From contig JAJEKV010000010.1 in NCBI GenBank assembly GCA_021234155.1, positions 24,259,335 to 24,323,334 of the forward strand: a DNA stretch of 64,000 nucleotides, in the 5' to 3' direction. Source of the DNA: Isoetes taiwanensis (Eukaryota; Streptophyta; Lycopodiopsida; Isoetales; Isoetaceae). The translations under genes and the position numbers were made by a program. The notes under the pieces were generated by a model. That model did not search any database and had not been told where the DNA came from. It saw nothing but the letters and a program-made list of their open reading frames with translations. Positions 1 through 26,307 of this stretch are shown here, piece after piece. Position 1 is the first letter of the stretch. Each line of letters begins with the position of its first letter.

Positions 1-240
1 TCCTCTTCCTCTTTTTCCCATGTCATTTTCCCTTCCCTTTTCCCCTTTCCCCGTTCCCCTTTTCCTCGTGCCTTTTTATCCTTCATTTTCCCCTTTTGTC
101 CTCCCTTTTCCTTTTCCTCTTCCTCTTAAGAGATCAAAGCGTGACTAATCACAGTGGTGGGAATGCAATCGGATGATCTCAACCATCCAAATTAGGGTTT
201 CATTCATGACATACTTACGCTATAACATTATAATATAAGA
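1..240 (-). mobile_element. Helitron A, 5' terminal part, runs off the left edge
   Basis: Read on the minus strand, this element starts at 240 with TCTTATATTATAA. The base before the TC is A, as expected for Helitron insertion between A and T. It then carries the same subterminal block as the other Helitrons here: AAACCCTAATTTGG, GATTGCATTC, a GTGATT box and the palindrome CTCTTAAGAG at 123-132. From about 122 down to 1 the minus strand is nearly pure purine, like the bodies of the Helitrons at 20.8 and 22.7 kb. No RepHel coding sequence is visible. The 3' end lies outside the window. Confidence 0.75.
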
Positions 241-768
241 TGAAGATGTCATTTGTAGATCAGAGAGGAACTCAAATAATAGTTGATGCTAAAATGATAC
301 CTAGCTAAACAAGTAGGAAACGCAGTAGACATTTTCAATCCTGCAGGCAAAGCTTGAAGCTCCGGGGTTTCCAAAGTTGCCCCCAAAACTTTTAACATAA
401 TTCTTGGAGTTTCGTTTCTTGATTAACGCACTTGTATAACTCTTGTGCCAAAGGCACAACTTACAACTTGTAACTATAGTGCATGGAGGATAGATCCCAG
501 CAAGAAAAATAAACGATAGAATTTACATCTTCAATGACTCACCATAAATTTTTTCAAAGCAGAGCACTTCTTGGCGGTGGGGAAAGCAGACCACTATGAT
601 ATGTTTGCATGAGTGCATTGTAATTTTACATATCAACAGGAAGGCTCATTGCACTTGAATTTGAAACAACTCTAAGTGCATTATTGCTTTCAAACTTTGA
701 TATTCCTTTTTTTTTTTTTCTAAATTATGCCCGACGAAAAGCCCAGCAACGCTGGGCACTTTTTCTAG
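241..768 (+). mobile_element. Helitron B, 3' terminal part, 5' end outside window
   Basis: The stretch ends with the family hairpin GCCCAGCAACGCTGGGC (741-757) followed by ACTTTTTCTAG ending at 768, and the next base is T. This is the canonical Helitron 3' end (hairpin, CTRR, insertion before T). Its matching plus-strand 5' end is not in the window. Helitron A therefore most simply sits nested inside this one, and 241-768 is the right-hand remainder. The interior shows no recognised gene. A short minus-strand open stretch near 540-600 is followed by a GTGAGT that could be a captured splice donor, but I cannot identify it. Confidence 0.7.
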
Positions 769-813
769 TATTATAATAAAAGATAATAAAAGATAGCCTC
801 AGAAAACGTCTTA

Positions 814-885
814 GGGTATTTGGTCTAGTGGTATGATTCTTGCTTAGGGTGCAAGAGGTCTCGAGTTCAATTCTCGCAATACCCC
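814..885 (+). tRNA. tRNA-Pro (AGG)
   Basis: This is a 72-nt cloverleaf without intron. The acceptor GGGTATT pairs with AATACCC, followed by discriminator C. The D-arm is GGTCTAGTGGTATG. The anticodon stem CTTGC/GCAAG closes loop TTAGGGT, giving anticodon AGG. The T-arm is TCGAG-TTCAATT-CTCGC, with one mismatch at its outer pair, so function is slightly less certain than for the TGG copies. It closely matches the well-known plant tRNA-Pro sequence. It is the first of five copies in a tandem block. Confidence 0.88.
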
Positions 886-1006
886 ATGAACTATGGTGTT
901 TCATTTATTTGATATAAGCATTTAACATCTCACTCATGTCAGAAGGTCAAAGGGATGCAAAGCCGATACAACTTTATTTCTCGTAATAGACTCATAATAT
1001 ATGTTA

Positions 1007-1078
1007 GGGTATTTGGTCTAGTGGTATGATTCTTGCTTAGGGTGCAAGAGGTCCCGAGTTCAATTCTCGGAATACTAC
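1007..1078 (+). tRNA. tRNA-Pro (AGG), acceptor stem damaged
   Basis: The sequence is the same as the copy at 814 through the anticodon arm (AGG), with a fully paired T-stem CCGAG/CTCGG. The 3' acceptor strand reads AATACTA instead of AATACCC, so the first pair is lost and the second is a wobble. It is therefore possibly a pseudogene. It lies exactly 193 bp after the first copy with the same flanking sequence. Confidence 0.75.
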
Positions 1079-1199
1079 ATAAACTGTGGTGTTTCATTTA
1101 TTTGATATAAGCATTTAACATCTCGCTCACATCAGAATGTCAAAGGGATGCAAAGCCAATTCAACTTTATTTCTCGTAATAGACTCATAATATATGTTA

Positions 1200-1271
1200 G
1201 GGTATTTGGTCTAGTGGTATGATTCTTGCTTTGGGTGCAAGAGGTCCCGAGTTCAATTCTCGGAATACCCC
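1200..1271 (+). tRNA. tRNA-Pro (TGG)
   Basis: This is a 72-nt cloverleaf with perfect acceptor pairing (GGGTATT/AATACCC) and discriminator C. The anticodon loop TTTGGGT gives anticodon TGG, and the T-stem CCGAG/CTCGG is intact. It is 193 bp after the preceding copy. It differs from its neighbours essentially by the A-to-T change in the anticodon, so the two isoacceptor types are interleaved in one array. It is the best-formed copy. Confidence 0.93.
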
Positions 1272-1675
1272 ATTATGCTTTCTGTGAGGATATCACTTCG
1301 TGCAACATTCAATGACATGATTGAATTAAACACTCTAGGTTGCCTAATGTTACGACGGATGTATTCTAAAAATACACCTTCCTTCCTAATTCCGTGACTC
1401 TAGGAATACGCCAAAGAGATGTATTCTAGTTATATTCATGGAGTGCTCATTCAAAAATCCCAAGATCAAGTTGTCACTATATCTCAATCTTTATGAATAT
1501 TTAAAAAGAAAATAATGTAAAAGCAATTGAATATTCATAGAAGACAAATTGCTCACGTAAAATAGTTTAATTATCAGCCTAATTGTGAGCTTAAGTAAAA
1601 ATGTGTACAAGTAAATTGTGGGCAATTTTCACCAACAAGTGCCAACCTGAGATTGTAGATTCATAGTATGTTTTA

Positions 1676-1747
1676 GGGTATTTGGTCTAGTGGTATGATT
1701 CTTGCTTTGGGTGCAAGAGGTCCTGAGTTCAATTCTCGGAATACCCC
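1676..1747 (+). tRNA. tRNA-Pro (TGG)
   Basis: The acceptor and anticodon stems are complete, with anticodon TGG. The T-stem is CTGAG/CTCGG, in which one Watson-Crick pair becomes T-G wobble. It is separated from the previous copy by a 404-bp unrelated AT-rich stretch (1272-1675). Confidence 0.91.
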
Positions 1748-1874
1748 ATGAACTATGAACTATGTCCTTTCTCTTGTTTGATATAAGCATTTAATATCCA
1801 CTAATGTCAGGATTTTAAAGGGATGCAAAGCCAATAAAAATTTATATTTCATAATAGCCTCAAAAAACGTCTTA

Positions 1875-1946
1875 GGGTATTTGGTCTAGTGGTATGATTC
1901 TTGCTTAGGGTGCAAGAGGTCTCAAGTTCAATTCTCGCAATACCCC
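1875..1946 (+). tRNA. tRNA-Pro (AGG), T-arm degraded
   Basis: The acceptor stem is intact and the anticodon is AGG, but the T-stem TCAAG/CTCGC has two mismatches, so this may be a decaying copy. The 120 bp after it (1947-2065) is nearly identical to the sequence after the first copy, which shows it arose by segmental duplication of that unit. Confidence 0.8.
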
Positions 1947-2090
1947 ATGAACTATGGTGTTTCATTTATTTGATATAAGCATTTAACATCTCACTCATGT
2001 CAGAAGGTCAAAGGGATGCAAAGCCGATACAACTTTATTTCTCGTAATAGACTCATAATATATGTTAAACCATCATTCAATTAAATTGGG

Positions 2091-2126
2091 ATTCCTAGGA
2101 TGGGTCCTAAGACACAACAAGTGGCC
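2091..2126 (-). repeat. Split direct repeat B2 (right element end)
   Basis: This is a 36-bp stretch starting ATTCCTAGGATGGGTCC and ending CAAGTGGCC, identical base for base to 2790-2825. Its ATT edge is taken as the recombination core, with host DNA to the left. Confidence 0.8.
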
Positions 2127-2630
2127 AGTGAAGTGGTGTTCTCATTGAGCTTTGTAAAATCGTACAGTACACAATTGGTTCCCCCACTGGGGTAGAACTA
2201 TGAAAAAGAACTTGAAAACTTCGAGTGCTCCGAAACTAGACAATCACCGAGAGCACGAAGAGAAAAAATATAAGGGGTGAGATGATAACAAAGGCCGACG
2301 ATCGATGCCCAACGTCCTAGGAACAAGTACCCCCGCGTCTGGCTCGTGAACCGCGAGCCCTGCAAAAAGGAGACCTGGACAATATAAACCGTTAGACGTT
2401 AGAAATGAGAACAGGGCTGGGATCGATGCCGATAAGATAGAAAAAAAACTCGAGGTCAGCAGGCACAATCGAGAGGATATCACCTCGACCAACCGGTACA
2501 AAGAAAGAAAAAGCAAAACGCACAAAAAGACCGGTTGGTAATCGCCGAGGCGACAAAAGCCACGCCGAGAATGAATAAAGAGACCAAATAAACCATCAAG
2601 CCACGCGAAACCGACCGAGAGGGAGGGGGC

Positions 2631-2792
2631 GGAAACCGTGTAAAGGCGACCGTAACTAGGAGACAAGCTCAAAGGAGAACGCCCGATAACCAAAGACAAG
2701 GGAAAATGAGCTATAAAAGGGCAAGGAGTTGAGGTGGGCGTCCCCCATCCAGGAATGGCGGTTCTATTGCTAGCTAATAGAACCCAAGCATT
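2631..2792 (-). repeat. Split direct repeat A2 (internal)
   Basis: About 162 bp, nearly identical to 7458-7618, including GCGACCGTAACTAGGAGAC and GAGCTATAAAA. Close to the ATT edge it carries inverted arms GGTTCTATT/AATAGAACC around GCTAGCT, a likely recombinase binding site. Confidence 0.82.
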
Positions 2793-2825
2793 CCTAGGAT
2801 GGGTCCTAAGACACAACAAGTGGCC
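2790..2825 (-). repeat. Split direct repeat B1 (internal)
   Basis: Identical to B2 over 36 bp and directly abutting A2 at the shared ATT (2790-2792). This internal B1-A2 junction is what a circular intermediate of a PAT-like element would look like. Confidence 0.82.
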
Positions 2826-2844
2826 GATAGAAGAGGAACCTACC

Positions 2845-3842
2845 TCAAAGACCAAGGTGGCGAGATACAATAAGGCGCCCCGAACGCCGGGAAGAATATA
2901 GCCAATGGGAGGAGGCAGAGCGCCAACGCCCATGGGAACGGACAAAGTCCGGAAGGGACGAAGAAGCAAAGAATGGGTGGCGCCTCACGTGCACTGCATG
3001 GTGCCAAACCGAGGCTCCCGCCGATAAGACGAAAGACTCAAACCACCGTGAGCTGGGCAGCCGCATATGACAACCGGGCGGGAGGAAGCCAAGGAAGAGC
3101 GAAGAGCCGACCACCCGGTGGGTCAATGGTGCTTAAAAGCAATGTGCAGACAATAAACGATGCAAGAATATCACCGACAAGAGGGAGAAAAAGTGCGAGC
3201 AATGAGGACTTCCCCGACCGCGCCAGCCTTTGGTCGTGACTTGGACGGCGGATAAACAACCGACATGATCGGAAAAAAAGAAAGATCGCGCTAATCAATT
3301 CAGATGCAAGGCCTCGATCACGGAGGAAACCAGCAAAGATGGTAACAAGACATGCTTTCATAATACTCACGCCAATGGGCCCGCGGACGGGCAAGTATAA
3401 AGAATGATTTGGCTTAACGGAGCCGCAGTAATGGTAGACGACCCGCTGAAGGGCTATGGACACGCTGGGCCCTCGGATTTTAACTAAGGTAGGAAGGTGC
3501 GAGCAAGGAGATCGGAAGTTGACCAAGCCATGAAAAAAGGCGATAGCAGCCAGACGCGATACCTATGGAGTTAGGATCGGTGGGCGAGATAACAACGAGG
3601 AGAAAACGCAAGAACATGTAGGGAGGAGGCGTGTAGTGCCGTGAATCATCGAGCTGCACCAATGACGAAAAAGATAGCCAGCGGAAGAATAGCCGAGCAA
3701 GGTAGACGATGCACGGACCTGAGGACGATACCAATGCCGAGGCAAAAGAAGGGCAAAGAGGGATCGTCGAAGAAAGGTAAGATATCCGAAAACGAGACAA
3801 AAACACAAGAGTCAAAAACCTATAATAAATCACAACAATCAA
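2845..3842 (-). pseudogene. Tyrosine recombinase remnant of the DIRS element
   Basis: The clearest piece is a minus-strand frame at 2845-3126. It contains HVRR (H46 and R49 of that ORF, an HxxR match), then LPDFVRSHGRWRSAS and a tyrosine at residue 77 in SHWLYSS. This resembles the C-terminal catalytic block of DIRS tyrosine recombinases (H-x-x-R, GRW.S and the nucleophile Tyr). Upstream frames (3038-3526 and 3480-3842) probably hold the N-terminal half, with the first catalytic Arg perhaps in AGFLRDRGL, but this is uncertain. At least two frameshifts break the gene. Its position between RNase H and repeat B1 fits the DIRS order. Confidence 0.55.
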
Positions 3843-4140
3843 ACGATGCCAACCAACCTTTAACTATCAAACATAACCTAGAACTAAAGAACAAACCGAC
3901 TAGAAAACAAGAAAGATCTATTCAATGGAAAAAAATTACAACGTAAGGCAAATAAAGCGCATGCCGATTGAGAGCCCGCGATGGGAGAAGAGAGTGAAGG
4001 GAGTAAGGCATGTGTGAATTCATGAAAGAAAACTGCATCGCGGGAACAAAGGGCTGCCAAGAAGCTGAGTCGACAAAGAAGCAACGGCCACCAAGGTGCA
4101 GAGAAGGCCACGCAAACACAACTAGTGTAAGTCGCGGCTC

Positions 4141-5738
4141 TCAGAAAGACGGGCGTGATGCAACACTTCGGGAATCAAGGCAAAGGGAGGAAAGCAAGAG
4201 GTTATTGAACAAATGCCAATCATAAGATAGTGCATCAAAGCGGAATTTATGGAGGGTAAAAATCCTTAGTATTGAAGACCGGCAAAGCAAGGCATTAGAA
4301 GGGCTAGCAAAACGATCCACATGATGAGGGGCCCCAGCGCCTCCCAAGAGATGAAAACAGAAGGGGATAAGGAAAAACTCATCAAAGGCCCGGATCTTTG
4401 AAAGATAATCAGCCCACTTCGTTCTCCAATCGTGGAACCCACACCGCTCCACCCGAATATGATACCGATAGCAAAAAATTAGCACTTCTAGAAGCAAAAA
4501 TGAAGTGTCGGGAGAACGTGAACCGCCACTCAGAATGAAAAAAAACACATTCTCGTTATCCCCGCTGAAGCTATGACACGGGATGCAGCCAAAGAAGGGA
4601 GCACACTCCTCGCAAGATCTGAAAAAGAGCAAAGAGTTCGCGCCAAGTAGAAGATTGCAGGCGATCATCTCGCCGAGAAAACACCGAGAAGGAGAGAAGC
4701 CGAGAACCGACGTGAAAGCCAGCCGCCCCCATCCCTCATCACTAGCATCAAAACCCAAGGTAGACTTGAGCACGGGGGGGGCCACCGCGGGGCTCTATCA
4801 AAGTGACGTATAACAGTCTCCCAAAGCTGGATTTCCTGTGACGCAAGAGGGGACAGCAGGAGAGGGGTATCCCAAAGGTCAGCATCACGTAAATCGGAAT
4901 GGAGGCCCCAAGTCAAGGCAGCACACAAATGGCCCAGGACTAGACGCAGAGACTGGATAAAACCAAGAAACCGAGCAATATGGCGAGGAGTGGGTAGAAC
5001 AAAGAGACAAGACCCGCTCCTTTTTAGCCTGGGAAATGCGAAAGAAACCCTCCTGTGCATCCACTATGAAGCCTAAAAAAGGTGGCGGTGTGAGAGACTT
5101 TTAAACCGACACTTTTTCCATGCTAAGAGAAAACCGCCCGTTGTAAGTCGGCAATGACGCTGAACTGAGAGACTCGGGGGAGGGACCGCATAGAAACAAA
5201 ATATCATCGACATAGGGCAAGCAACGAATACCCTGACCTCGCCAAAACCGAACTAACTGTCTAACTAATTTGGTAAAGACAAAGGGAGCGGAAGCAAGAC
5301 CAAAGGGGAGGACATTAAAGACGTAAAAACGACCTTCAAGCTCAAAACCCAAAAAAGTGCGGTGAGGAGGCCAAATAGCGACATGGTGATACCCAGACTT
5401 AAGGTCAACCGCAAAGAGAAAATCATTAGGCAGACATAAATGTGAAAGCAGCTCAAGGGACTCATACCGAAGGGAGGAATTGTTAAGAAAGAGTTCAAAC
5501 ATCGTAAGTCAAGGATAAGGCGAAACTTGTTTATGCCTTTGGGGACAACACCCAAGGGGGAGCAAAAGAAAGGGCAGGAGAGGACAAGGGACGCGGCACC
5601 CGTATGCAAGAGATAAAAAACGGCCGAGCGTGCAAAGTCTAGGTGGGCAGACAAAGAAGAGTGATTTGGGGCGGAAAAAGCAACAGATGGACGAGAAGAT
5701 GACCAAGGGAGGCGATAACCAAACTGGATCCAATGCAA
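4141..5738 (-). pseudogene. Reverse transcriptase-RNase H remnant of the DIRS element
   Basis: In two minus-strand frames, RT starts with SPLGVVPKGINKFRLILDLR (5738-5490 frame). After a frameshift it continues as FAVDLKSGYHHVAIWPPHRT, LPFGLASAPFVFTKL and the catalytic YVDDILF (5502-5101 frame). FLGFIVDAQEGFFRISQAK follows in the next frame. RNase H pieces follow: LGFDASDEGWG with its first Asp, and a late RTKWADYLSKIRAFDEF that matches the terminal (N)ADxLSR region. The FLGF.L.G..Y.F..LPFGL.SAP wording is typical of DIRS-type RT rather than Ty3. At least three frameshifts or stops are needed, so it is a pseudogene. Confidence 0.78.
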
Positions 5739-6591
5739 AACCTGTTGCGAGGAACAGATAGATCGCCGTGAAAAGGAAAAGCGGTCTCGAGGCGATTTAG
5801 AACCACAGAAGCAGAAGCCAAATCATCAGCAGGGGAGGGGTCGATGCCAAGATGAGGGATGATGGAGGTGATCGGAGCACATTCTGAAAAAAATGGGTAT
5901 AAACCGTAAGTCATGTTGCCAAAAGAAAAACAAACCAAGTTAGTCGAGTGGATAACCATGGATAAAACAACACCTCTAAAGCTAACACCAAACACAATGA
6001 TCACAACACCGCATAAACCCATAGAAACCCGGAAAACATCCAACTATAATACCGAAAGTAAGACAATTAACATCCTACCGTTTTTAGCAAAACCTAAAAT
6101 ATCTAATTTGAAAGTGAAAATTCAACCTATCCAAGAAAAATTAGACAAGAAAAACACAACCACACCCGACCAATAGAACCAAAACTTAATTCAAAGAAAT
6201 CTATAAGAAAAACAATAGTCTTGAAAAGGGGACCAAATTTGTATTAATATTGAGAAACTATGACAACAGAAGAAATATGCACATGTGGAGAACTAAGAAT
6301 CAAGGGCCGGACGAGGAAAAAACGGAGTCGGGCCGGTACCAAAGGACCTGTGGGTGGAACCAAAGGCGGAGGGGAGCAACAGGAGAGCCCGTGGTTAGCT
6401 TAGAATGGCACGCTTAATGCGATGGCCCAAAGGCCCACAAAAAGTGCAAAATGGGCGGGGATCCCCGACCGAGACGAGAAAGGGGATTGAGGTGTGGCGA
6501 GAAGGTGGAGCCGAGAGGGCAGGTGCGCCGGATCTAGAAACAGGAGGGCCGATCACGATGCATCCGCCGAGCTAGTTTTAATTTTTTAGAA

Positions 6592-9435: not shown

Positions 9436-10693
9436 CTAGTAATAGTGCCCAGCGTTGCTGGGCATAAGGTTGGCATTAAATGTTTTGGCCGCAATTAGAA
9501 ATGTTTTGAACAATGTTTTATAAGAAATGTAGCTCTATGCTAGATAGTGTTGGATCTGTATATTTTTTTAGCTTTAAGTGGTGCTTGTTCATAGCAAGTC
9601 TAAGTGAGGAAATTGTTAACCTGAGTTTGTTTTGGGTTAAGACTATAGTCAAAGTTTGTAACTATACTCAAAGTCTATAACTGTTTGTGAGGTTGGACAT
9701 AAGATGGCACATTGTAAATGACAGAGATTGGCAAACTTCTCAAAAACAACTGAAACAAACGTGCACGCTTTGCTTGAGTCTCTCTCTCTCTTTCTTGCTG
9801 TGACTTAGTATCCTCCCTCCCCCTCCCTCCCCCCATCCCTCACTCTCTATGATACTACCTATTGAGCATAGTACCAAATCCAACATTGCTGCGCTATTAG
9901 TTTTTTGTGTTTATAGGGATGGGCTATATGATTTTTTGTGTTTATAGGGTTGTGCACAGTTAGAACCTATAAGTTTGAGTTTCTTGCATGTTAAGCTAGT
10001 TTCTCCCCAGCATTTTAGGGTTTCATTCATCATGACATACACATTAATTTCACATATCAAGTACATTTATGTTTATTAAGCTTGGAGGAGCTTAAATATA
10101 TGCATTGAATAATGCCTACACATGACATATTCATGAAGTTGACATATTCATAAAGCTTATTGTACACTGGATTGGCATGCTTTTGTTTTAAATGCATCTT
10201 GTGTCTATCCATGCAACATATGTAGAACAATATATGCAACATATGTTTTAGGCACATGTTTGTGGTCTTTTGTTGACGCATTTTTTTGTAAAAATGTTCT
10301 CTAGGTTTTTAGAATAATGAAACAGATAACATTTGTATCTTGCCCCTCAAAATTGCATTTGCGGTATTGAATAATTCTTAGCCAATGGCAATATCTCTAT
10401 GCTCCATCCCAACCTGCAATAGCAAATGCTTCAATCTACCGGGAATGAACAAATACATGTGAGGATTCCATTTATTAGGGACAAAGAACTAAAGAAAGAA
10501 ATATGCATGGCCACAAACAATTAAGAAGGATGAGAGTCATTGTAGCACAAATGCTCAATAGGAATCCTGTGCTTAACTTATGATAGAAGAAGAAACTTGG
10601 CTGAAATCGGGTTTGGCATGCTATCTTAACAATAAAAGTGCATGCACAAGTAGCCTCGACAACAAATATATCAAAATAGCATAGGTTAAAAAA

Positions 10694-10905: not shown

Positions 10906-11250
10906 CTGGAAGCTCGTAGAGGCACTATAAAGGTACAAAAGAAATACCAACAGTCATTATATTTTCACAAAGTTAACATGAAATTAAGCAATCACCAATG
11001 TCAAGGAGTAATAGAAAATACATTATGTTTCTTGATACTGGTACAATAAGCAAGAAGTACAACATCAGTTTAGAGCAGAGCAGACCCACGAATTGCTTCA
11101 ATCTTATATTATAATGTTTTGTTGTAATTCCTGGATTTGGATCCAGCCCTAGATTGGTTGGCTGAGATCCATCTTAGTAATTTCGATGGTCAGGATTTTT
11201 AGGGCGATTTTTAGGGCTTGCAAAAACGGAGAGAAGCGCGGGGATTTGGC

Positions 11251-11540
11251 ATGGCTCCTCCGGCGCCCAACAGAATGAGATGCCTATACATTTACAATCG
11301 TAATGGTGTGTGCCTGCATTACCATGTATGGGATAGACACCCTTCTCCACATTGAGCCCGCATCAGGATCACAAGCTCATGTTCGGGCTTCTCTTCTCTA
11401 GGTTTTCGATTCCGGCACCATTACCATGTATGGGATAGACACCCTTCTCCACATTGAGCCCACATCAGGATCACAAGCTCATGTTCGGGCTTCTCTTCTC
11501 TAGGTTTTCGATTCCGGCAAGATCGATGGTCTCATTTAGT
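11251..11540 (+). pseudogene. Captured TRAPPC1/BET5-like first exon, duplicated and broken
   Basis: From ATG at 11251 the frame reads MAPPAPNRMRCLYIYNRNG then VCLHYHVWDRHPSP. After a +1 shift it continues TLSPHQDHKLMFGLLFS. YxxNRNGxCLxYxxW.R followed by PQQDHKLMFGLLFS is the N-terminal signature of TRAPPC1 (yeast Bet5), a small longin-fold subunit of the TRAPP vesicle-tethering complex. The second half of the exon is repeated in tandem (units at 11318 and 11420, period 102 bp). The frame is broken, so no functional subunit is expected. It lies inside Helitron D next to a kinesin exon piece, so it is a captured fragment. Confidence 0.7.
11318..11520. repeat. 102-bp tandem duplication inside the captured TRAPPC1 exon
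   Basis: ATTACCATGTATGGGATAG starts at 11318 and again at 11420. The two units are almost identical up to GGTTTTCGATTCCGG, differing at GCCCGC versus GCCCAC. This suggests a recent local duplication after capture. Confidence 0.9.
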
Positions 11541-12140
11541 ATCTCTTGAAGTGAGATGATTTTTTCCTATCTACGGAAACTTCATTGCCGACCATGCATA
11601 CTGCAGGTGGAGGTATACACCATCTTGCTACTTTCGTTTGTATAAAAGATGAATACAAAAGTTAAATTCTCTTTGGCTCTTCATGGCTTTGCTAGAAGAG
11701 TTGGGTTGTTGGCTATGTTTTGTATAAGGAAGCTTTTCTTCTTGCTCCAAATATAAACAATTTCGAGCTTTGTTGGTTGCTTTCGAATAGCATTTGGCAT
11801 TCGGATGGGCATCCACTTGCTAGCATTCGTAGGTGCATAGTATCGGGGCCATGATTTATAACCTTAATCCATCTTGGCCAAGTATATCTCTGCTTAAGCA
11901 TGTCATACTTACATGGAGCTAGACTGGACCAACCTAAATATATGGCGTGCAGAATTGGACTTGCAAAGCGCCATAGCTGCAGCAAGTCTAGCCTTATCTA
12001 GCTCTCGTTTGTTTTTTTCTCGTTTGTTTTGTTGTGGGTTGAGAGGTCTCATAATGCCTAATCTTTCGTTTCTTTTATTGTACAGATAATGCATGCTAAT
12101 GAAGTGGCCTCTTTGTCATTTTTACGTTGGAACAGGGCAA

Positions 12141-12208
12141 AGGTCATCCGTAGAAGGTGATCCTCTTAAAGAGGCGACCAACATCAACAAGTCTCTTCTA
12201 ACACTTGG
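12141..12208 (+). pseudogene. Captured kinesin motor-domain exon fragment
   Basis: The plus strand reads RSSVEGDPLKEATNINKSLL followed by TLG and then GTATGC, a splice donor. EGxxLKEAxxINKSLxxLG is the conserved switch II/alpha-4 segment of kinesin motors. The normal preceding LAGSE of switch II is not found upstream, so only part of an exon is present. The exon border is at the usual place after LG. It is in the same orientation as the TRAPPC1 piece, as expected for gene fragments gathered by a Helitron. Confidence 0.75.
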
Positions 12209-13355
12209 GTATGCATGTCACATTTTATAGCCCAAATAATACTGAGACCTCGATAATAAACCTATCCATGCGGGCAAGTTATCATGGCATTAGTGCAAAA
12301 GAGTGCCGCCGATTTTCATATTCTGCAACTGCTTCAGTGGAAATTATTTTGTATGTTTGCTGCTATACAGTTTCAAATTGATCACAGTTTGTTCAGGGAA
12401 TAAAATTCGAGCTAAAGTGGGAGCTTTGATGCAGTGGAGCATTGTGCTACATTATTATGTTGCAGCAGTTTTTCACAGGGCCATGGCTAGGAAGGCACCG
12501 GATCGAGGGCTTATGTCTTTGTATTTATTGGTCTGGCTTGGCTCTTGCTCTTCATTCCTCCGAAAAAGAGGTAAGAAAGAGTATCTTGGAAAAGACACTA
12601 GGGTGGGTTCAAGGAAAATCTCAACACTTTGCTACAAAGAAAAAGGACCCGTGTGCTTTCACGGCGATGTGGAAGCAAGCATATTGTTTACAAGGATATG
12701 TGTGGTAAACATTTGTTAGTACCTAACATCATCACACCATAATCATTCTTTGTGTCATGCCTCAATATGACCATGCATCTCTCTACATCTTCAAGTATTA
12801 AGACATTCAGATGGTTCAAACTTCATTCAAAAATACCACTCTACATTAAGAAATACCATACCACTCTACATTAATAGATATGGTGCAGATAGAGGTAATC
12901 AAGCACAATGTCCATGATGTTCTTGCCATCATTAATCAACTTATATAATTATATTTTAGCATTCTGCGGTTGGAGTCTTGGCACAAAACTGAAGAGTTCG
13001 CTATATAGTATGTGTGCACTTTGCCAATATTCTGTAACTCTAATAAAAGGTTCATTTTCTTTGCTCCAAAATAGTGCTCCTGAGCAATCGCTAATGTAGG
13101 CTTGATTCATCATCTGACTAATACGGGGTTTGGACGTAGTAATCTTTGGCACTTAATGAGAAAATGGCAATCCATCTGCAGATTGTAAGTTGAAAAGAGA
13201 TAATAACTCTTTTATGGACGTTACAACAATATCAAAATTGGTTTATCTATATGCTAAATGTATTTCTAATTTCTACATGTTTCTAAACATTCAACCTATG
13301 CGTAGAAAATATTAAGACATTTGATCAAAGGAAATAATACAAAACAAAGAAAGCC

Positions 13356-13391
13356 GCCTCCTCCTCCTCCTCCTCCTCCTCCTCCTCCTCC
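13356..13391. repeat. (CCT)n microsatellite
   Basis: About twelve uninterrupted CCT units. The polyproline open frame over it is a by-product of the repeat. Confidence 0.95.
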
Positions 13392-14655
13392 AAACTCTTT
13401 AGACTATTCAGAAGAGAAATTGAAAAGATCAAAACCAATTGCAAATGAGTATATAGAAGAATCAACAATAACATGTCTAATACCACCAAGAAGCAATATC
13501 ACTTAATATTATAGGCACCCCAACATTTGCAGGTTCCAAATTATGCCCAGCAACGCTGGGCACCATAACTAGTAAAAGATTAAAGCTGTCTGGTCACATA
13601 TCAAATCTCATAGCTAAAAAATGTTAGCAAACATATTACTTAAAGAAGGATCATGTCTGCAAGTTAAATTCCAAGCTTGTCTGAAGGGAGACATTCTAAA
13701 ATTGTCCAAATTGATAAAGCAGCATTGCATATAAAACACAGAATGAGTGGCCTTAAGATCACTTTTGCAACCAAGAGTATTAATTAAAACTTGCCAAAGG
13801 CAGCTTGAGAAATTTTCAGCTTGCTGATTGGTAAGAATTAAAGCATGGGTCAAACATAATATCAAGGAGAATAGTTTTTTATAGTCTACGCACAAATTGC
13901 TATTACATGCATGCTTTTTAGCAAAAAAATCAATTTTCTGTTGATGGGATCATCTATGCCACACCAGGCTGATTTCTTTGTAACCTATGCAAGAATATAT
14001 TATATAAAGCCTACAAATAAAAAGACCTCATGCGTGCGCCATCTTAATTTCTAAAACCTCAATAGAATCTAGAAATAATGACAATAACAGTAGAACAGTA
14101 GAATGTAATGCAAAAGGATGCAGGAGCGCCATACTGACCGCTTCTTGCCTTGGAACCATAGCTATCAAGTCCAGAGGAGCTATTGAAGCTTCACATTCGA
14201 TGGCGAGATCCACTTTCCCCTCCTTTTCCGCTACTTCTAATCGAAGCCCAAATCTACTTATTAGCACTAAACACTTTGAATGTGATATTTAAGAGCAGAT
14301 CGATCAGCTTTGGCAAATAGATCATCCTCATCGATCTTCATCAATCTGGAAAATGCAGTTGAAACCCAGATGGAATGAAAATATATTGTTTGAGCCTATG
14401 CATGCCCATGCTATTGCCCTGTTCAACTATTCTTTAGCAAACATTTTGGCAACATCAAATCCTTGTAGGCCTTCTGCTGCCCCAAATACCCTGTAACGGT
14501 CATGGCTGCCTTAAAGAACGTTCATGCAACTTTGAGCAACATCCCGCAAAAGCTACAAAAGATCTCTCTCGAAGTGCTCAAGTGCTCCAACAATTCATTC
14601 CTAATTTGCATCATGCAAGTAGACATGGCATCTTCTATTACCATGTCTCGCATCC

Positions 14656-20251: not shown

Positions 20252-20762
20252 GATTTCAGGTACCTATTTGCATTGTGGTTCTGAAGGGAGTGAAATTTTT
20301 TTTAGTATAACAACCAACACATAACTACCATTAACATTAATTAACACAACCATTGGGTCCAACGCATTTAAATTAAAATCCCCCTTAAACCCCCTTTGGT
20401 TTGGGTGCATATTCACACGGGGGGTGACTCCGGGCAACGAGAGCTGTTGGATAGGCATATTCACCCCTTATTCCTTAATCTACACCGTACGTAAAGTTCC
20501 TCGTTTATGGGGTATGCAAGTACAAAATTTGCTATACTGTATAACAAGATTTGCAAAATACAATAAGATTTCAAGCAAAATACTATATGGTGTTGATTTT
20601 GTACGTGAAAAATATAATTATAAGGGCTCTCGCTGCCCTACGTCACCCCCCGTGTGAATATGCACCCAAACCAAAGGGGGTTTAAGGGGGATTTTAATTT
20701 AAATGCGTTGGACCCAATGGTTGTGTTAATTAATGTTAATGGTAGTTATGTGTTGGTTGTTA

Positions 20763-22542
20763 TCTTATATTATAAAGTTTTAGCGTATGTCTTCAATCAA
20801 ACCCTAATTTAGATAGTTGAGATCGTCTGATTGCATTCGAAGGCCGAGATTTATCGCACAACTTCCCACCACCGTGATTGGCCATGCTCTGATCTCTTAA
20901 GAGGAAAGGGAAAATGGCAGAGAAAAGGGCAAAGTGAGAGGCAAAAAGGCACGGGTAAAAGGGAAAGACGGAGAAGGGAAAAGGAAAGGGAAAAGAGCAC
21001 GAAAAAAGGAAAGAAAAAAGAAATGGAGAAAAAGGAAGGAAAAAAGGACACTATGAAAAGGAAAAGGGGGAAAGGGTGAGGACAAAATAAGGGAAAAGAA
21101 AAGGGGAAGAGAGGAAAAGGAAGAAAAATAGGGCAACGGGAAAAAGGTAAAACGGAAAAAAAGAAGTGTGGAAGGGAAAAAGGGAAGATAAGAATGATGG
21201 AGAGAAGGAAAAAAGGGCATGGAAAAATAGAAAGGGAAGGAAGAAGGAAAAATGAGGCAAAAAAGGGAAAAGGGCATGAGGAAAAGGGAGGGAAATGAGA
21301 GAGGAAGGAGAAAGTGGCACGAGAAGAGGAAAAGGGTGAGGAAAGGAAAAAAAGGGAAAAAGAAATGGAAAAAGAGATGGAAAAGGGAAAAGGGAAAAGG
21401 AAAAGGTTAAAAGCAGAAAGAGAACAGAAAACATGGAATAGGAAAAGAGGAAAAGGGAAAAGGGGAAGAGGGTGGAAAAAGGAGGAAAAAGGGCATGTGA
21501 AAAAGGTGGAAAAAATGGAATGGAAAAAGGTGGAAAGGAAAGAGGAAAAGGGCATGCAAAAAAGAGAAAAGGATGAAAAAAAGAAGGAAAAGGAAAAAGG
21601 AAACGGAGGCTTAAAGGGGAAAGGGGAAAGAAAAAGAACACGAGGAATAAGGAGGAAAATGGAAAAGAGGAAGGGAAAAAAGGCATAGGGAAAAGAAAAA
21701 AAAAAAAAAAAAAAGGGGAATATGGAGAGGGGAAAAAGGGGAAGAGGTAGAGGAAAAGGCGGAAGAAAAGGCAAGTAAAAAAAAGTGGAAAAAAGGGAAT
21801 GGAAAAATACATGGGAAAAAGGGAAAAGGAAAAAGGAAAGGGAAAGGGAAAGAGAAAAGGAAGGGGGGAAGGAAAGAGGAAAAGGGCACGGGAAAAAGGG
21901 AAAGGGTGGGGAAATGATGAAAAAAGAAGGAAAAAAAAAAAAAAAAGGGAGGCGGAAAGGGGGGAAGGAAAGGAAAAAAGGCATGAGAAAAAAGGAAGAA
22001 GAAAATGGGAAAAAAGAGACATGAGATAAAGAAGAAGAGGGTGAGGAAAGGAAGAAAAACATAAAAAAAAAGGTGGGGAAAAGGGAATGCAAATAGGGCA
22101 TGAGAAAAGGGAAGGGAAAAGAGAAAAGCAAAAGGAATGGAAAAAGGAAAGGGAAAAAAGAGCATGAGAAAAATGGGAAGGGTGGAGAAAGGTGAAAAGT
22201 GAAGGAAAAAAGCCGTCAAAAAAGGGAAAGGGAAAGGGAAAAATGAGAAGGAGAAAAGGAAGGAAAAGAGGAGGGAGAAGAGGGTAAAAAAGAAAAGAAA
22301 AAAAAAAAAGAGAGAAGGAGAAAAATAAATGTGCAGGAAAAATAAGAAAAGGGAAAAAAGAAAGTGTGTAAGAAAATGAGGAAAAAAGGATATGCAGGAT
22401 AGAGCAAAGGGAAGGTTATCAAATGCACAAAAACCTCTTATAGCCTAGATATGATGGACTTGGTTAATGAGTCTGAGCTGAATAGGTTTCCATCCACAAA
22501 TGTTCCCAACATTTGCCCAGCAACGCTGGGCACCATTACTAG
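20763..22542 (+). mobile_element. Helitron E, non-autonomous, purine-filled
   Basis: It starts TCTTATATTATAAAG at 20763 after A and ends with the hairpin GCCCAGCAACGCTGGGC plus ACCATTACTAG at 22542 before T. The first 130 bp is the family subterminal block (AAACCCTAATTT, GGCCATGCTCTGATCTC and the palindrome CTCTTAAGAG). The rest, to about 22400, is a homopurine tract. No gene is present. Its borders are proven by the repaired inverted repeat of the host foldback element. Confidence 0.9.
20894..22400 (+). repeat. 1.5-kb homopurine tract (Helitron E body)
   Basis: The plus strand is almost only G and A, built of variations of GGGAAAAGG with scattered GCATG or GCACG words. Long open frames on both strands (Phe/Pro/Ser-rich on minus, Lys/Glu/Arg-rich on plus) follow from the lack of stop codons in such a tract and are not genes. 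Confidence 0.95.
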
Positions 22543-23084
22543 TACTAAAAAAAATTTTGGGCCCTACGGGCCCTAAAAAAAGCAAACATACGTAAAAACA
22601 TGCAAAACTCGTATGATGTTCTTTCCATACATCTATGGCAATGTTCCTTTATCCGCATTTACATCTTATATTATAAAGTTTTAGCGTATGTCATGAATCA
22701 AACCCTAATTTGTATGGTTGAGATCATCTAATTGCATTCGAAGGATGAGATTTATCGCACGACTTCCTACCGCCGTGATTGGCCATGCTTTGAAAAGGGA
22801 AAGGGAAAAGGAAAAGAGAGGAGAAAAGGGCAAAGTGAAAGGCAAAAAGGCACAGGTAAAAAGGAAAGAAGGAAAAGGTAAAATAAAAGGAAAAAGAGCA
22901 CAGAAAAAAAGGAAAGGAAAAGAAAGGGAGAAAAGGAAGGAAAAAGGGCATTACGAAAAGGAAGTTTTAGCATATGTCATGAATCAAACCCTAATTTGTA
23001 TGGTTGAGATCATCTAATTGCATTCTGGCGAAGGATGATTTATCCTCGACGACTTCCTACCGCCGTGATTGGCCATGCTTTGAA

Positions 23085-23905
23085 AAGGGAAAGGGAAAAG
23101 GAAAAGAGAGGAGAAAAGGGCAAAGTGAAAGGCAAAAAGGCACAGGTAAAAAGGAAAGAAGGAAAAGGGAAAATAAAAGGGAAAAGAGCACAGAAAAAAA
23201 GGAAAGGAAAAGAAAGGGAGAAAAAAGGAAGAAAAAAAGGGAAAGACTGAAAAGGAGAAGAGGGAAAAGGTGAGGACAAGAGTAAAAAGGTAAAAGGAAA
23301 AGGGGAAGAGGGAAAGGGTAGAGAGAAGGGAAAGGAGGAGGAGGAGGGAGTGAAAAGGGACACTGGGGAGAGAGAAGAGGGAAAAATGTGGGGAAGAAGA
23401 AAAGGAGAAAAAGGACACAAGAAAAGGGGAAGAGAAAAAGGGAGGGGAGAAGAGAAAGGAAAAGGGAAAAGAAAAAGAGAGGGGAAAGCGGGGAAGGGAA
23501 GGAAAAATGCACAGAGAAAACTGGAAGAAGGAAGGGGAAAAGTGAAGGGAAAAAAAAAAAGAAAGGTGAGGGACAAAAGGGGAAGAGGAAAAGGGTAGAG
23601 AGAAGAGAAAGGGGGAGGAGGAGGGAGTGAAAAGGGACACTGGGGAGGGAGAAGAGGAAAAACATGGGGAAAGGAGAAAAGGAAGGGAAAAAGGACACAA
23701 GAAAAGGGGAAGAGAAAAAAAGGAGGGGAGAAGAGAAAGGAAAGGGGAAAAGAAAAAGAGAGGGGGAAGCGGGGAAGGGAAGGAAAAAGGGCATAGAGAA
23801 AACTGGAAGAAGGAAGGAGGAAAAGTGAAGGGAAAAAAAGAAAGAGGGAAAGTGTGAGGAAAGAGAAAAAGGGAAGGTATGGAAAAAAGGAACGGGAAAA
23901 GAAAT
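23085..23905 (+). repeat. Homopurine tract with 277-bp tandem duplication
   Basis: Purine-only plus strand. The segment around GACACTGGGGAG repeats at 23360 and 23637, with matching flanks over roughly 270 bp. The open frames here are artefacts of composition. Confidence 0.9.
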
Positions 23906-24049
23906 GGACCATATATAGATAAAGTTATAGTGTAAGTATGTCATGAAGCAAACCCTAATTTGTATGTTTAGATCATTTGATTGCATCCATAGGCCGTGAT
24001 TTATTGCACAACTTCCCACCACCGCGATTGGCCATGCTTTGATCTCTTA

Positions 24050-26010
24050 AGAGGAAAGGGTAAAGGAAAAGGGAGGAGGAAAGAGGAAAAGTGAAGGGCA
24101 AAAAGGCATGGACAAAAGGGAAAGAGGGAAAGGAGAAAAGGGCAGGGAAAAGGGAAAGAGAAAGAAAAAAAAAAGAAAGGGAGAAAGGGAAGGGAAAAAG
24201 GACACCGAGAAAAGGGAAAGAGGGAAAGGGAAGGGAAAAGTGAAAAAAGGAAAAGGGTAGGGGTGAAAAAGAGCATGGGAAAAGGGAAAGGAAAAGGGGA
24301 GGGGGGGTGTGTGGGAAGAAAGAGAGGACATTGGGAAAGGGAAAGGGTAAGGGGGAAAGGGGAAAAGGGAAGGGAAAAGGACAAGAGGAGAAGGAAAAGA
24401 GAAAAAGGGAAGGGAAAAGGACAAGAGGAGAAGGAAAAGAGAAAAAGGGAAGGACGAAGGGAAGGGAGCGAAAAAAGAAAAAGGGAGGGGGAAAAGGGGA
24501 AGAGGAAAAGAAGAAGGAAAAAAAGAAGGAAGAGGGAAAGGGTACGGAAAGGGGAAAAAGAAAAGCATGGGAAAAGAGAAAGGGAAAGTAACATATGAGG
24601 AAGAAAAGGGCAAGGGAAGAGGGAAAGGGAAAAAGGGGAAGAGGAAAAAGGTGAGGAAAGGGAAAACGAGCACGAAAAAAAGGGGAAGAGGAAAATGATG
24701 GGGAAATGGGAAAGTAAAAAGGAAATGGGAATGGGATAAAGGAAAGAGAAAGGGAAAAGAAAAGAGAGGAAAGGGGAAAAGGGCACGTGGAAAAGGAAAG
24801 GAGAAAAGAAAAAGGAGGAATGGGAAAAAGGGCACGCGGAAAAGGAAAGGGGAAAAGGGGGCAGGAAAAAAGAGAAAAAGGGAAAGGGTGAAGAAAGGGA
24901 AAGCGAATCGAAAAAGGAAATGAGAGGATAAAAGGAAAGAGAAAAAGGGACACGGGAAGAGGAAAAGGAGGAAAAGGGAAGGAAAATGGGTACCGGAAAA
25001 ATGGGAAGTAGAAAAGGGTGGGGAAAAAGAAAGGCATGGGAAAAGGAAAAAGGGGGAAAAGGAAAAAAGAGAAGGAAAGGGAGAATGTGAAGGGCAAATA
25101 GGCACGAGGAAAAGGAAAAAAAAATAGAGAATGCAAAAAAGGGAAGGAAAAAAGGCATGGGAAAAAGGGAAAAGGGAAAAGGAAAAAGGGAAGGAATAAA
25201 TAGCTTGGGAAAGGGAGTAGAAAACGAATGGGAAAAATGAAGGGAAAAAGGGCACCATCAAAAGGGGAAGAGGGAAAGGGTGGGAAAAAGAGGAAAAGGG
25301 AAGGGAAAAAGGGGAACTGGAAATGGAAAAGGGAAATGAAAAAATAAAAAGGGAGGGGGAAAGTGGAAAAAAGAACCCGGGAAAAAAAGCAAGAGGAAAA
25401 GGGGAAGAGGGATAGGGAAGGGGAAGAGGAAAGGGTGAACAAAGGGTAAAAGGGAAGCGAAAAGAGCATGCAAATGGAAGGGAAACAAGGCATGGGGAAA
25501 AGGGGACGAGGGAAAGAAAGAGCAAGAAAATTAGAAAAGAGAAGGAAAGAATGTCATGGGAAAAGGGAAAGGAAAAAAGGAAAAATAGAGAGGGAAAAGG
25601 GGAAGGAAAGGGTGGGGAACGGAGGAAAATGGAAGGGAAAAAGGAACGAAAAAAGGGGGGAAAGAGGAATAGCTTAAATGGGAAAAAGAAGGAAAAAGGC
25701 ACAGAAAAAGGGCGAAAAGAAAGGGAAAAAAAAGCCAAGAAGAGCATGGAAAAAAGGAAAAAAGAAAAAAAAAGAGGGAAATGTTGGGGAAAAGAGAAGA
25801 AAAAAAAGGAAAGAATCAACCAGGAAAAGGTTTGGGAAGAAGGGAAAGGGAAGGGCAACATAGGGGGAAACAAGGATGTGAAAAAAAAAAGAAAAAAAAA
25901 AAGAAAGAAACAAAGGAAGCATGCAAGGAAAATGAAAAAAAAAAAAGGAAAAGGAAAAAGGGAAGTGTGAAAACGAGGAAAAGGAAAAAGAAAAGAGTAA
26001 AAGCAGCGTA
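24050..26010 (+). repeat. 2-kb homopurine tract (Helitron F body)
   Basis: Nearly all G/A on the plus strand. It includes a 40-bp tandem repeat at 24381 and 24421 (ACAAGAGGAGAAGG unit). There is no credible gene, although open frames of up to 608 codons exist on the minus strand. Confidence 0.95.
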
Positions 26011-26307
26011 AAGAATGGTATCGAATATGTTAACAATGGAGTACTTTCGGGTTATTCTCTCATTGCTATTGTGTATCATTTACAGGGTCTCAGTCAACTT
26101 ATGCCCAGCAACGCTGGGCACCGTTCCTAGTGATTATGTATCATTATATGCCAGTTACCACAACATACCACTCATATTCATAAGGCTATCCAATTCATAA
26201 GGCTATCCAAGGTGCCTGAGCAAAAGTAAATTCTTGGATGAACTAGAAGCACAAATACAAAGCCTACTTCTACAAGGAAAAAGTTGCAGCAGGATATGCC
26301 TCAATTT

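Follow-up and report, generated by a model that had tools for sequence, protein, structure and literature searches.

A putative family of non-autonomous Helitrons with homopurine bodies of constant strand orientation in Isoetes taiwanensis

To what do the kilobase-long tracts of purine-rich DNA in a 64,000-nucleotide stretch of the Isoetes taiwanensis genome belong, and why do the purines keep to one strand? The stretch, which we call the window throughout (contig JAJEKV010000010.1 of assembly GCA_021234155.1, positions 24,259,335 to 24,323,334 of the forward strand), contains two elements, E and F, that the first-pass annotation described as Helitrons carrying nearly pure G/A as cargo, with the purines always on the same strand relative to the element ends. 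Comparison with the rest of the genome (1.66 Gb searched, in 1,110 contigs) indicates that E, F and a third element at 1-240 are probably copies of one non-autonomous Helitron family in which the homopurine tract was inherited, mainly as passive cargo. The Helitron identity, the homopurine body and the constant strand are all borne out by the analysis, and cargo is the best-fitting interpretation of them.

Element E (20763-22542, plus strand) is a complete non-autonomous Helitron that starts with TC, ends with CTAG and lies between A and T. It consists of a 136-bp 5' leader (20763-20898), a 1517-bp tract with 91.3% purine (20899-22415) and a 127-bp tail that includes a 3' hairpin (22515-22531). 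Element F (22664-26130, plus strand) has the same ends and the same type of target, and in both elements the hairpin, at 26103-26119 in F, stops 11 nt before the element end. F is a composite in which three leaders and three tract pieces precede a single 3' end. A 290-bp tandem duplication covers the leader and the start of the tract, a second, internal duplication spans 277 bp, and these are followed by an additional leader (innermost, with approximate limits 23920-24048), tract and tail of the sub-family represented by copy L020. The first tract piece (22792-22948, 93.6% purine) is homologous to the start of the E tract, the second (23082-23904, also 93.6%) contains the internal duplication, and the main tract (24049-26003, 1955 bp, 91.4%) belongs to the L020 sub-family; as an exact 27-mer, the junction joining its second part to its third has a single occurrence in the genome. 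Leader duplications, some partial and some whole, are seen again in independent loci (22664-24048 in the window, L022, L082, L097, L098 and L103) and may reflect re-initiation in the course of rolling-circle copying.

The third element runs along the minus strand from a 5' end at position 240; its leader and tract start occupy 1-240, and beyond the window it continues with a 1546-bp tract followed by the hairpin and ACCATTACTAG. The hairpin at 741, on the plus strand, belongs to a separate element in which no purine segment was seen. These two had been merged into a single Helitron, A, by the first-pass annotation; as a single unit, A would violate the strand rule that the same annotation proposed, and split in two it conforms to the rule. 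In a scan of the entire window that scored purines +1 and pyrimidines -3, with a threshold on the score, four purine segments and one pyrimidine segment stood out, no others reaching the threshold: the tract of E, the three pieces in F, and 1-127 (92.9% pyrimidine, with the purines on the minus strand), which is part of the third element. All five sit within Helitron-like elements. The bodies of E and F are indeed filled with purines, although "nearly pure" overstates the 91-94% measured, and no run of purines without interruption exceeds 74 nt in E or 73 nt in the last tract of F.

The assignment to Helitrons is supported by features of both ends. The hairpin folds at -11.6 kcal/mol in E and -9.5 kcal/mol in F (z = -5.3 and -4.3 against shuffles), and CTAG follows within 15 nt in 55 of 58 sampled hairpin copies. 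As read from the flanks, 17 of 22 elements as cut are preceded by A and followed by T, and among the other five the 5' end is altered in one and the 3' end in two. Membership in the Helentron/HINE group, which is marked by T-rich or TT target sites and by palindromes at both ends, was considered and rejected on account of the insertion between A and T and the CTAG ends; the leader folds no better than its shuffles (z = 0.36). Given the size and composition of the tract-bearing elements, as reflected in the list of open reading frames (ORFs), they do not encode RepHel, so that they fall within the Mothra-like class, defined by repeats between Helitron ends and the lack of RepHel, the repeats in this case being very degenerate. 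Judged from sequence features, then, the family is a Helitron by its ends, hairpin and target, and by its body a variant of the repeat-filled kind.

The constancy of the strand could be assessed across the genome from three kinds of anchors. The hairpin, which occurs at five places in the window (10 matches over both strands with up to 3 mismatches, against a shuffle mean of 0.08), has 5,412 exact genomic occurrences, and its reversed control has none. The sample of 58 hairpin copies was drawn from about 100 places listed, all on contigs C1-C50, which are mostly small. A purine segment longer than 100 bp was found within 600 bp upstream, on the strand of the hairpin, in 13 of the 58, one of them (L048) with a tract of only 133 bp, and no copy had a pyrimidine segment in that interval. 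Two exact 5' motifs, with 980 and 326 genomic occurrences, served as the second kind of anchor. The tract is on the sense strand in 16 of 20 copies with the first motif, the exceptions being L102, L104 and L107, which represent a tract-free leader type, and L096. In this last copy, the family 5' end is broken about 24 bp in by a reversed member of the family with purines on its own sense strand. The second motif is accompanied by the tract in all 18 new copies, the systematic draw having been 20, of which L031 and E itself were already in hand. The third anchor, the leader of E, gave about 1,763 first-look candidates; all 40 genomic matches that were scored are 99-100% identical, and each of the 20 fetched from these 40 contains a tract, with the hairpin present within the 3.5-kb cut in 15. 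Altogether, the purines lie on the strand that bears the TC...CTAG ends in 70 of 70 anchored tract copies (13 anchored by the hairpin, 20 by the leader, 34 by the 5' end, and three in the window), and random orientation, which would have contradicted the proposed rule, was not observed. Some loci carry additional tracts without visible ends of their own; at L033, a purine segment (1-324) is opposite in strand to the leader of the locus and reaches the edge of the cut, its own ends not being seen.

The tract marks sub-families rather than each copy of the hairpin. It starts at a median of 136 bp from the 5' end (range 113-209, 48 copies), and the exact E-type junction between leader and tract occurs 295 times in the genome. 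The objection that most members might lack the tract holds over all hairpin copies, 45 of 58 having none within 600 bp, and fails for the leader-defined sub-families considered above. The Wilson interval for the share of hairpin copies with a tract is 14-35%, and in 38 of the 58 a tract located farther than 600 bp upstream would escape detection. Extrapolation yields about 1,200 tract copies (740-1,880), or roughly 2 Mb, a rough figure because of the sampling. The presence of the tract also differs by tail type, with none in eight copies ending in ACTTTTTCTAG versus eight among 24 with ACCATTACTAG. One member in the window (11102-13572, plus strand) shares the hairpin, has a leader of distant similarity and carries no tract; it contains a putative kinesin-like fragment, recognized by eye, which would suit a gene-capturing Helitron.

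The tracts resemble each other in composition and periodicity. In nine tracts compared, A accounts for 52-55% and G for 36-40% of the positions, the purine fraction being 0.898-0.914 (0.878-0.935 in five further tracts); the most common 7-mer is AAAAGGG, and autocorrelation peaks at about 6-7 and 13-14 bp, in varying relative order, are present in all nine. The tract thus looks like a very degenerate repeat of the GGGAAA/GGGAAAA type, and the term "satellite", applied to it earlier, is a loose one for a periodicity that is present but weak. In 25 unsplit tracts the length is 1,158-1,937 bp, with a median of 1,596 bp; this set leaves aside the split tracts of L022 and L035, F, the five leader copies with no hairpin inside the cut (L023, with 955 bp, L025, L031, L033 and L034) and the 133-bp tract of L048. 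A role in triplex (H-DNA) formation, which had been suggested for the tracts, finds no support beyond composition: homopurine mirror repeats clearly exceed second-order Markov shuffles in one of the nine tracts (L081, 37 against 4.8, standard deviation 3.2), in the other eight they are within two standard deviations of the shuffles, and G-quadruplex motifs are more than two standard deviations above the same type of shuffles in two of the nine (F and L020, of one sub-family). Minus-strand ORFs in the tracts reach 608 aa, which is expected because the pyrimidine strand contains few stop codons; the 9.15 indels per kb per copy counted in the tracts of 17 E-type copies speak against a coding function.

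The same 17 copies have a median pairwise identity of 0.952, which points to activity in the fairly recent past. In the alignment used for rates, which retained L022 with its extra sequence, the tail (4.78) and the leader (0.43) have fewer indels per kb per copy than the tract, where substitutions relative to the majority amount to 1.34% in clean context and 3.3% over all aligned columns. The divergence of the leader, 0.48%, is biased low because the copies were picked by leader similarity, and the 0.96% of the 3' tail is the fairer comparator. At a greater depth, the leaders of E, F, L020, L002, L083, L081 and L008 are plainly homologous, with 74-91% identity to that of E, and those of a deep type, L016 and L082, share about 54% identity with it. 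Plain alignment scoring separated homologous tracts poorly, and a composition-weighted matrix was used instead; with it, the E tract compared with main-group tracts outscores 30 of 30 shuffles as well as the reversed control. A single origin of the tract is favored for the main group, and may or may not extend to the deep type.

Two copies are mosaics, and a third probably is. The leader of L129 belongs to the clade of E, and the first 420 bp of its tract match the second piece of F and L008 (z about 12, compared with about 1 for L082, L016 and L126), whereas the remainder of the tract matches L082 (z = 22.8) and L016 (z = 14.6) more strongly than the F piece (z = 5.0); its tail and end, ACCTTAACTAG, resemble L068, the 3' part of L082, when compared by eye. 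In L128, the first 500 bp are F-like (z = 15.4 against 3.6 for L126) and the sequence thereafter is L126-like (z = 24.2 against 3.1 for F), with no hairpin seen in the 2.6-kb cut. To judge from these scores, tract halves from different lineages are joined in L128 and L129. L008 is probably a third mosaic: it is F-like over the first 650 bp (z = 21.1), and its tail shares 83% identity with the L016 tail, although the tract is ambiguous in its 3' half (best z = 2.1). The cut points were picked after inspection of the alignment scores, and since the tract makes up most of the element, breakpoints within it indicate exchange across the tract but no hot spot. Such mosaics could arise by template switching in rolling-circle copying, or similar purine tracts could recombine with each other. 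New 3' ends are known to arise when a Helitron bypasses its own 3' end, as Helraiser can (PMC4778049).

Taken with these observations, the preferred explanation would run as follows. The tract would first have been acquired by an ancestral Helitron and then spread by the rolling-circle mechanism to perhaps 1,200 places, with a related autonomous Helitron supplying the RepHel proteins. The strand would be constant because all copies derive from an element whose orientation was already set. Descent alone suffices for this constancy, and it is also the explanation given for the constant orientation of the oyster arrays (PMC7492417). With respect to potential autonomous partners, the Helitron_like_N profile yielded 1,813 first-look candidates, and all 150 matches that were scored exceeded the cut-off; four 10-kb stretches around matches with long frames were read. 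In one of the four, L085, a RepHel-type frame of 1936 aa (14-5824) is followed by a related hairpin, GCCCGGCAACGCCGGGC, at 6383-6399, which has two stem changes relative to the family hairpin. At 9919-9990 of the same stretch there is a head-to-tail junction of ends, with CTAG followed directly by TCTTATATT, and GCCCGGCAACGCCGGGC recurs before this junction. No purine segment was found in any of the four stretches.

Several points weigh against a tract that was gained once and carried passively. The autonomous partner remains putative, the hairpin of L085 being related but not identical to that of the family. The deep type (L016, L082, L088) is also tract-bearing, and its tracts cannot be securely aligned to that of E; against third-order shuffles, they have weak similarity to some main-group tracts and none to others. 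In a tree of 15 leaders, the grouping of all tract-bearing types is neither settled nor rejected (approximately unbiased [AU] test, p = 0.267). If an ancestor of pure purine had decayed neutrally and symmetrically for as long as the deep leaders have diverged, at most 0.85-0.89 purine would be left, and 0.90-0.96 is seen near the 5' end. This excess speaks for upkeep of the composition unless tracts have moved between leaders, as the mosaics suggest; the estimate assumes a shared history of leader and tract, which the mosaics put in doubt, and it is not proof of selection. The test that found no sign of selection for purines, expected as rarer transversions between lineages than among private changes, is a weak one, being small, with pairs that share members and single copies that carry private changes. 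The transition:transversion counts in this test are 193:61 for private changes and 63:23 between lineages, with no difference (p = 0.66). The latter count sums clean blocks of E-L008 (9:4), Fouter2-L008 (19:9), L016-L082 (30:9, arguably one sub-family but retained) and E-Fouter1 (5:1); pairs from one sub-family or element were excluded (Finner-L020, 17:12; L002-L083, 4:5; Fouter1-Fouter2, 1:1), and adding them raises the transversion share. Renewal of the tracts by slippage left no trace in 208 windows of 120 bp, where purine content and short-period repetitiveness are uncorrelated (rho = 0.004, p = 0.95).

The weak alignment of the deep tracts with those of E, or its failure, could mean that related Helitrons captured or expanded purine microsatellites on at least two separate occasions, and the best leader tree, which places the tract-free L102, L104 and L107 with the deep tract-bearing type, points in the same direction. 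The support for that tree is low, however, and the AU test does not reject one gain. Moreover, all nine tracts share the strand, the starting point and the signal at 6-7 and 13-14 bp, and L129 and L128 join deep-type tracts to 5' parts of the E clade, so that repeated gain seems unlikely to us.

A further alternative, which we consider quite unlikely, is that the tract is functional in transposition. A kilobase that folds poorly, or that forms stable R-loops on transcription, could help the strands to separate close to the 5' end, and selection acting on source copies would then maintain where the tract lies, how long it is, its strand and its composition. The ends are borne by the purine strand, which would be the one cut and transferred; Helraiser forms junctions only from its top strand (PMC5876387), and an improvement of transposition by repeat blocs was proposed in the Mothra study (PMC4683698). 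Position, strand and composition are constant over leaders that differ by Kimura two-parameter distances up to about 0.7-0.9, and the purine content above the neutral-decay limit fits this alternative as well. Against it, the transversion deficit between lineages is not seen, tract-free members with the same hairpin are abundant (the 45 of 58 mentioned above), and descent accounts for the strand. An extended version, in which the family is a distinct kind of Helitron and the tract a selected unfolded, R-loop-prone module of the transferred strand that both raises transposition and serves as the exchange point for sub-family ends, its composition being kept and its sequence not, so that the family would evolve by reshuffling its ends, appears distinctly improbable.

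That the tracts spread through binding of a host protein, by chromatin or regulatory co-option, has a precedent in the Helitron with a GA-rich male-specific lethal (MSL) motif that was recruited into Drosophila dosage compensation (PMC6417741). This precedent is all that favors it, and the tracts have no shared spaced motif, GGGCAYG exceeding shuffles by more than two standard deviations in two of six tracts (E and L016) with irregular spacing, which makes co-option highly improbable. Purine DNA is hard to sequence and assemble, and L128 is located on a 57-kb contig, but tracts and mosaics can hardly be assembly artefacts of low-complexity DNA when elements of this build are found on many contigs, several of them chromosome-size, the 17 E-type copies agree at the median identity given above, and L129 is on a 24.5-Mb contig.

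Two other features were noted in the window: just to the left of E, at about 20300-20760, two long inverted arms were seen by eye that resemble a foldback element or a miniature inverted-repeat transposable element (MITE), and at 814-1946 (plus strand) there are five tRNA-Pro genes in a row, three with the anticodon AGG and two with TGG, three of the genes being within a 193-bp tandem repeat.

The suggestion that a homopurine Helitron body had not been described is consistent with the open-access literature searched, in which no example was found; this is weak evidence. A purine-rich stretch in a transposable element is not in itself without parallel, as rat L1, a retrotransposon and in this respect different, reportedly has a guanine-rich polypurine stretch at its end. 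There are good descriptions of repeat-filled Helitrons (PMC4683698, PMC7492417), and among these, in the literature covered, the family is nearest to the rice DHH_Mothra, which likewise is a plant, high-copy, non-autonomous element with repeat blocs between short ends (PMC4683698). DHH_Mothra elements are 1.25-2.74 kb long and vary in repeat number by copy, for which slippage or unequal crossing-over was proposed; they differ in having direct-repeat blocs of about 20% and 40% GC, in reversed order in some copies, and the covered portions of that paper do not mention homopurine composition (PMC4683698). The Cg_HINE Helentrons of the Pacific oyster are also non-autonomous rolling-circle elements with central repeats, a fixed orientation of the array relative to the flanks and exchanged combinations of flank and array, but they target oligo-T and have monomers of 140-180 bp, mostly five or fewer (PMC7492417), in contrast to the insertion between A and T, the TC...CTAG ends and the lack of a clear monomer in the family described here. 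DINE-1/HINE elements contain a microsatellite, and some copies consist to about one half of simple or tandem repeats; the microsatellite is short, and the ends and the TT or T-rich targets are different (PMC4067079). The Drosophila Helitron with the MSL motif spreads purine-rich DNA as well, in the form of a 21-bp motif with a known binding complex (PMC6417741) rather than a kilobase tract.

Should the extrapolation be right, about 2 Mb of the Isoetes taiwanensis genome is strand-asymmetric purine DNA, dispersed in kilobase-long tracts by a single transposon family. With many replicate insertions and tract-free controls, the family is suited to asking how such DNA affects replication stalling, nucleosome exclusion and R-loops. 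The exchange of Helitron halves across a low-complexity body, as seen in the mosaics, in turn bears on the origin of new non-autonomous Helitrons.

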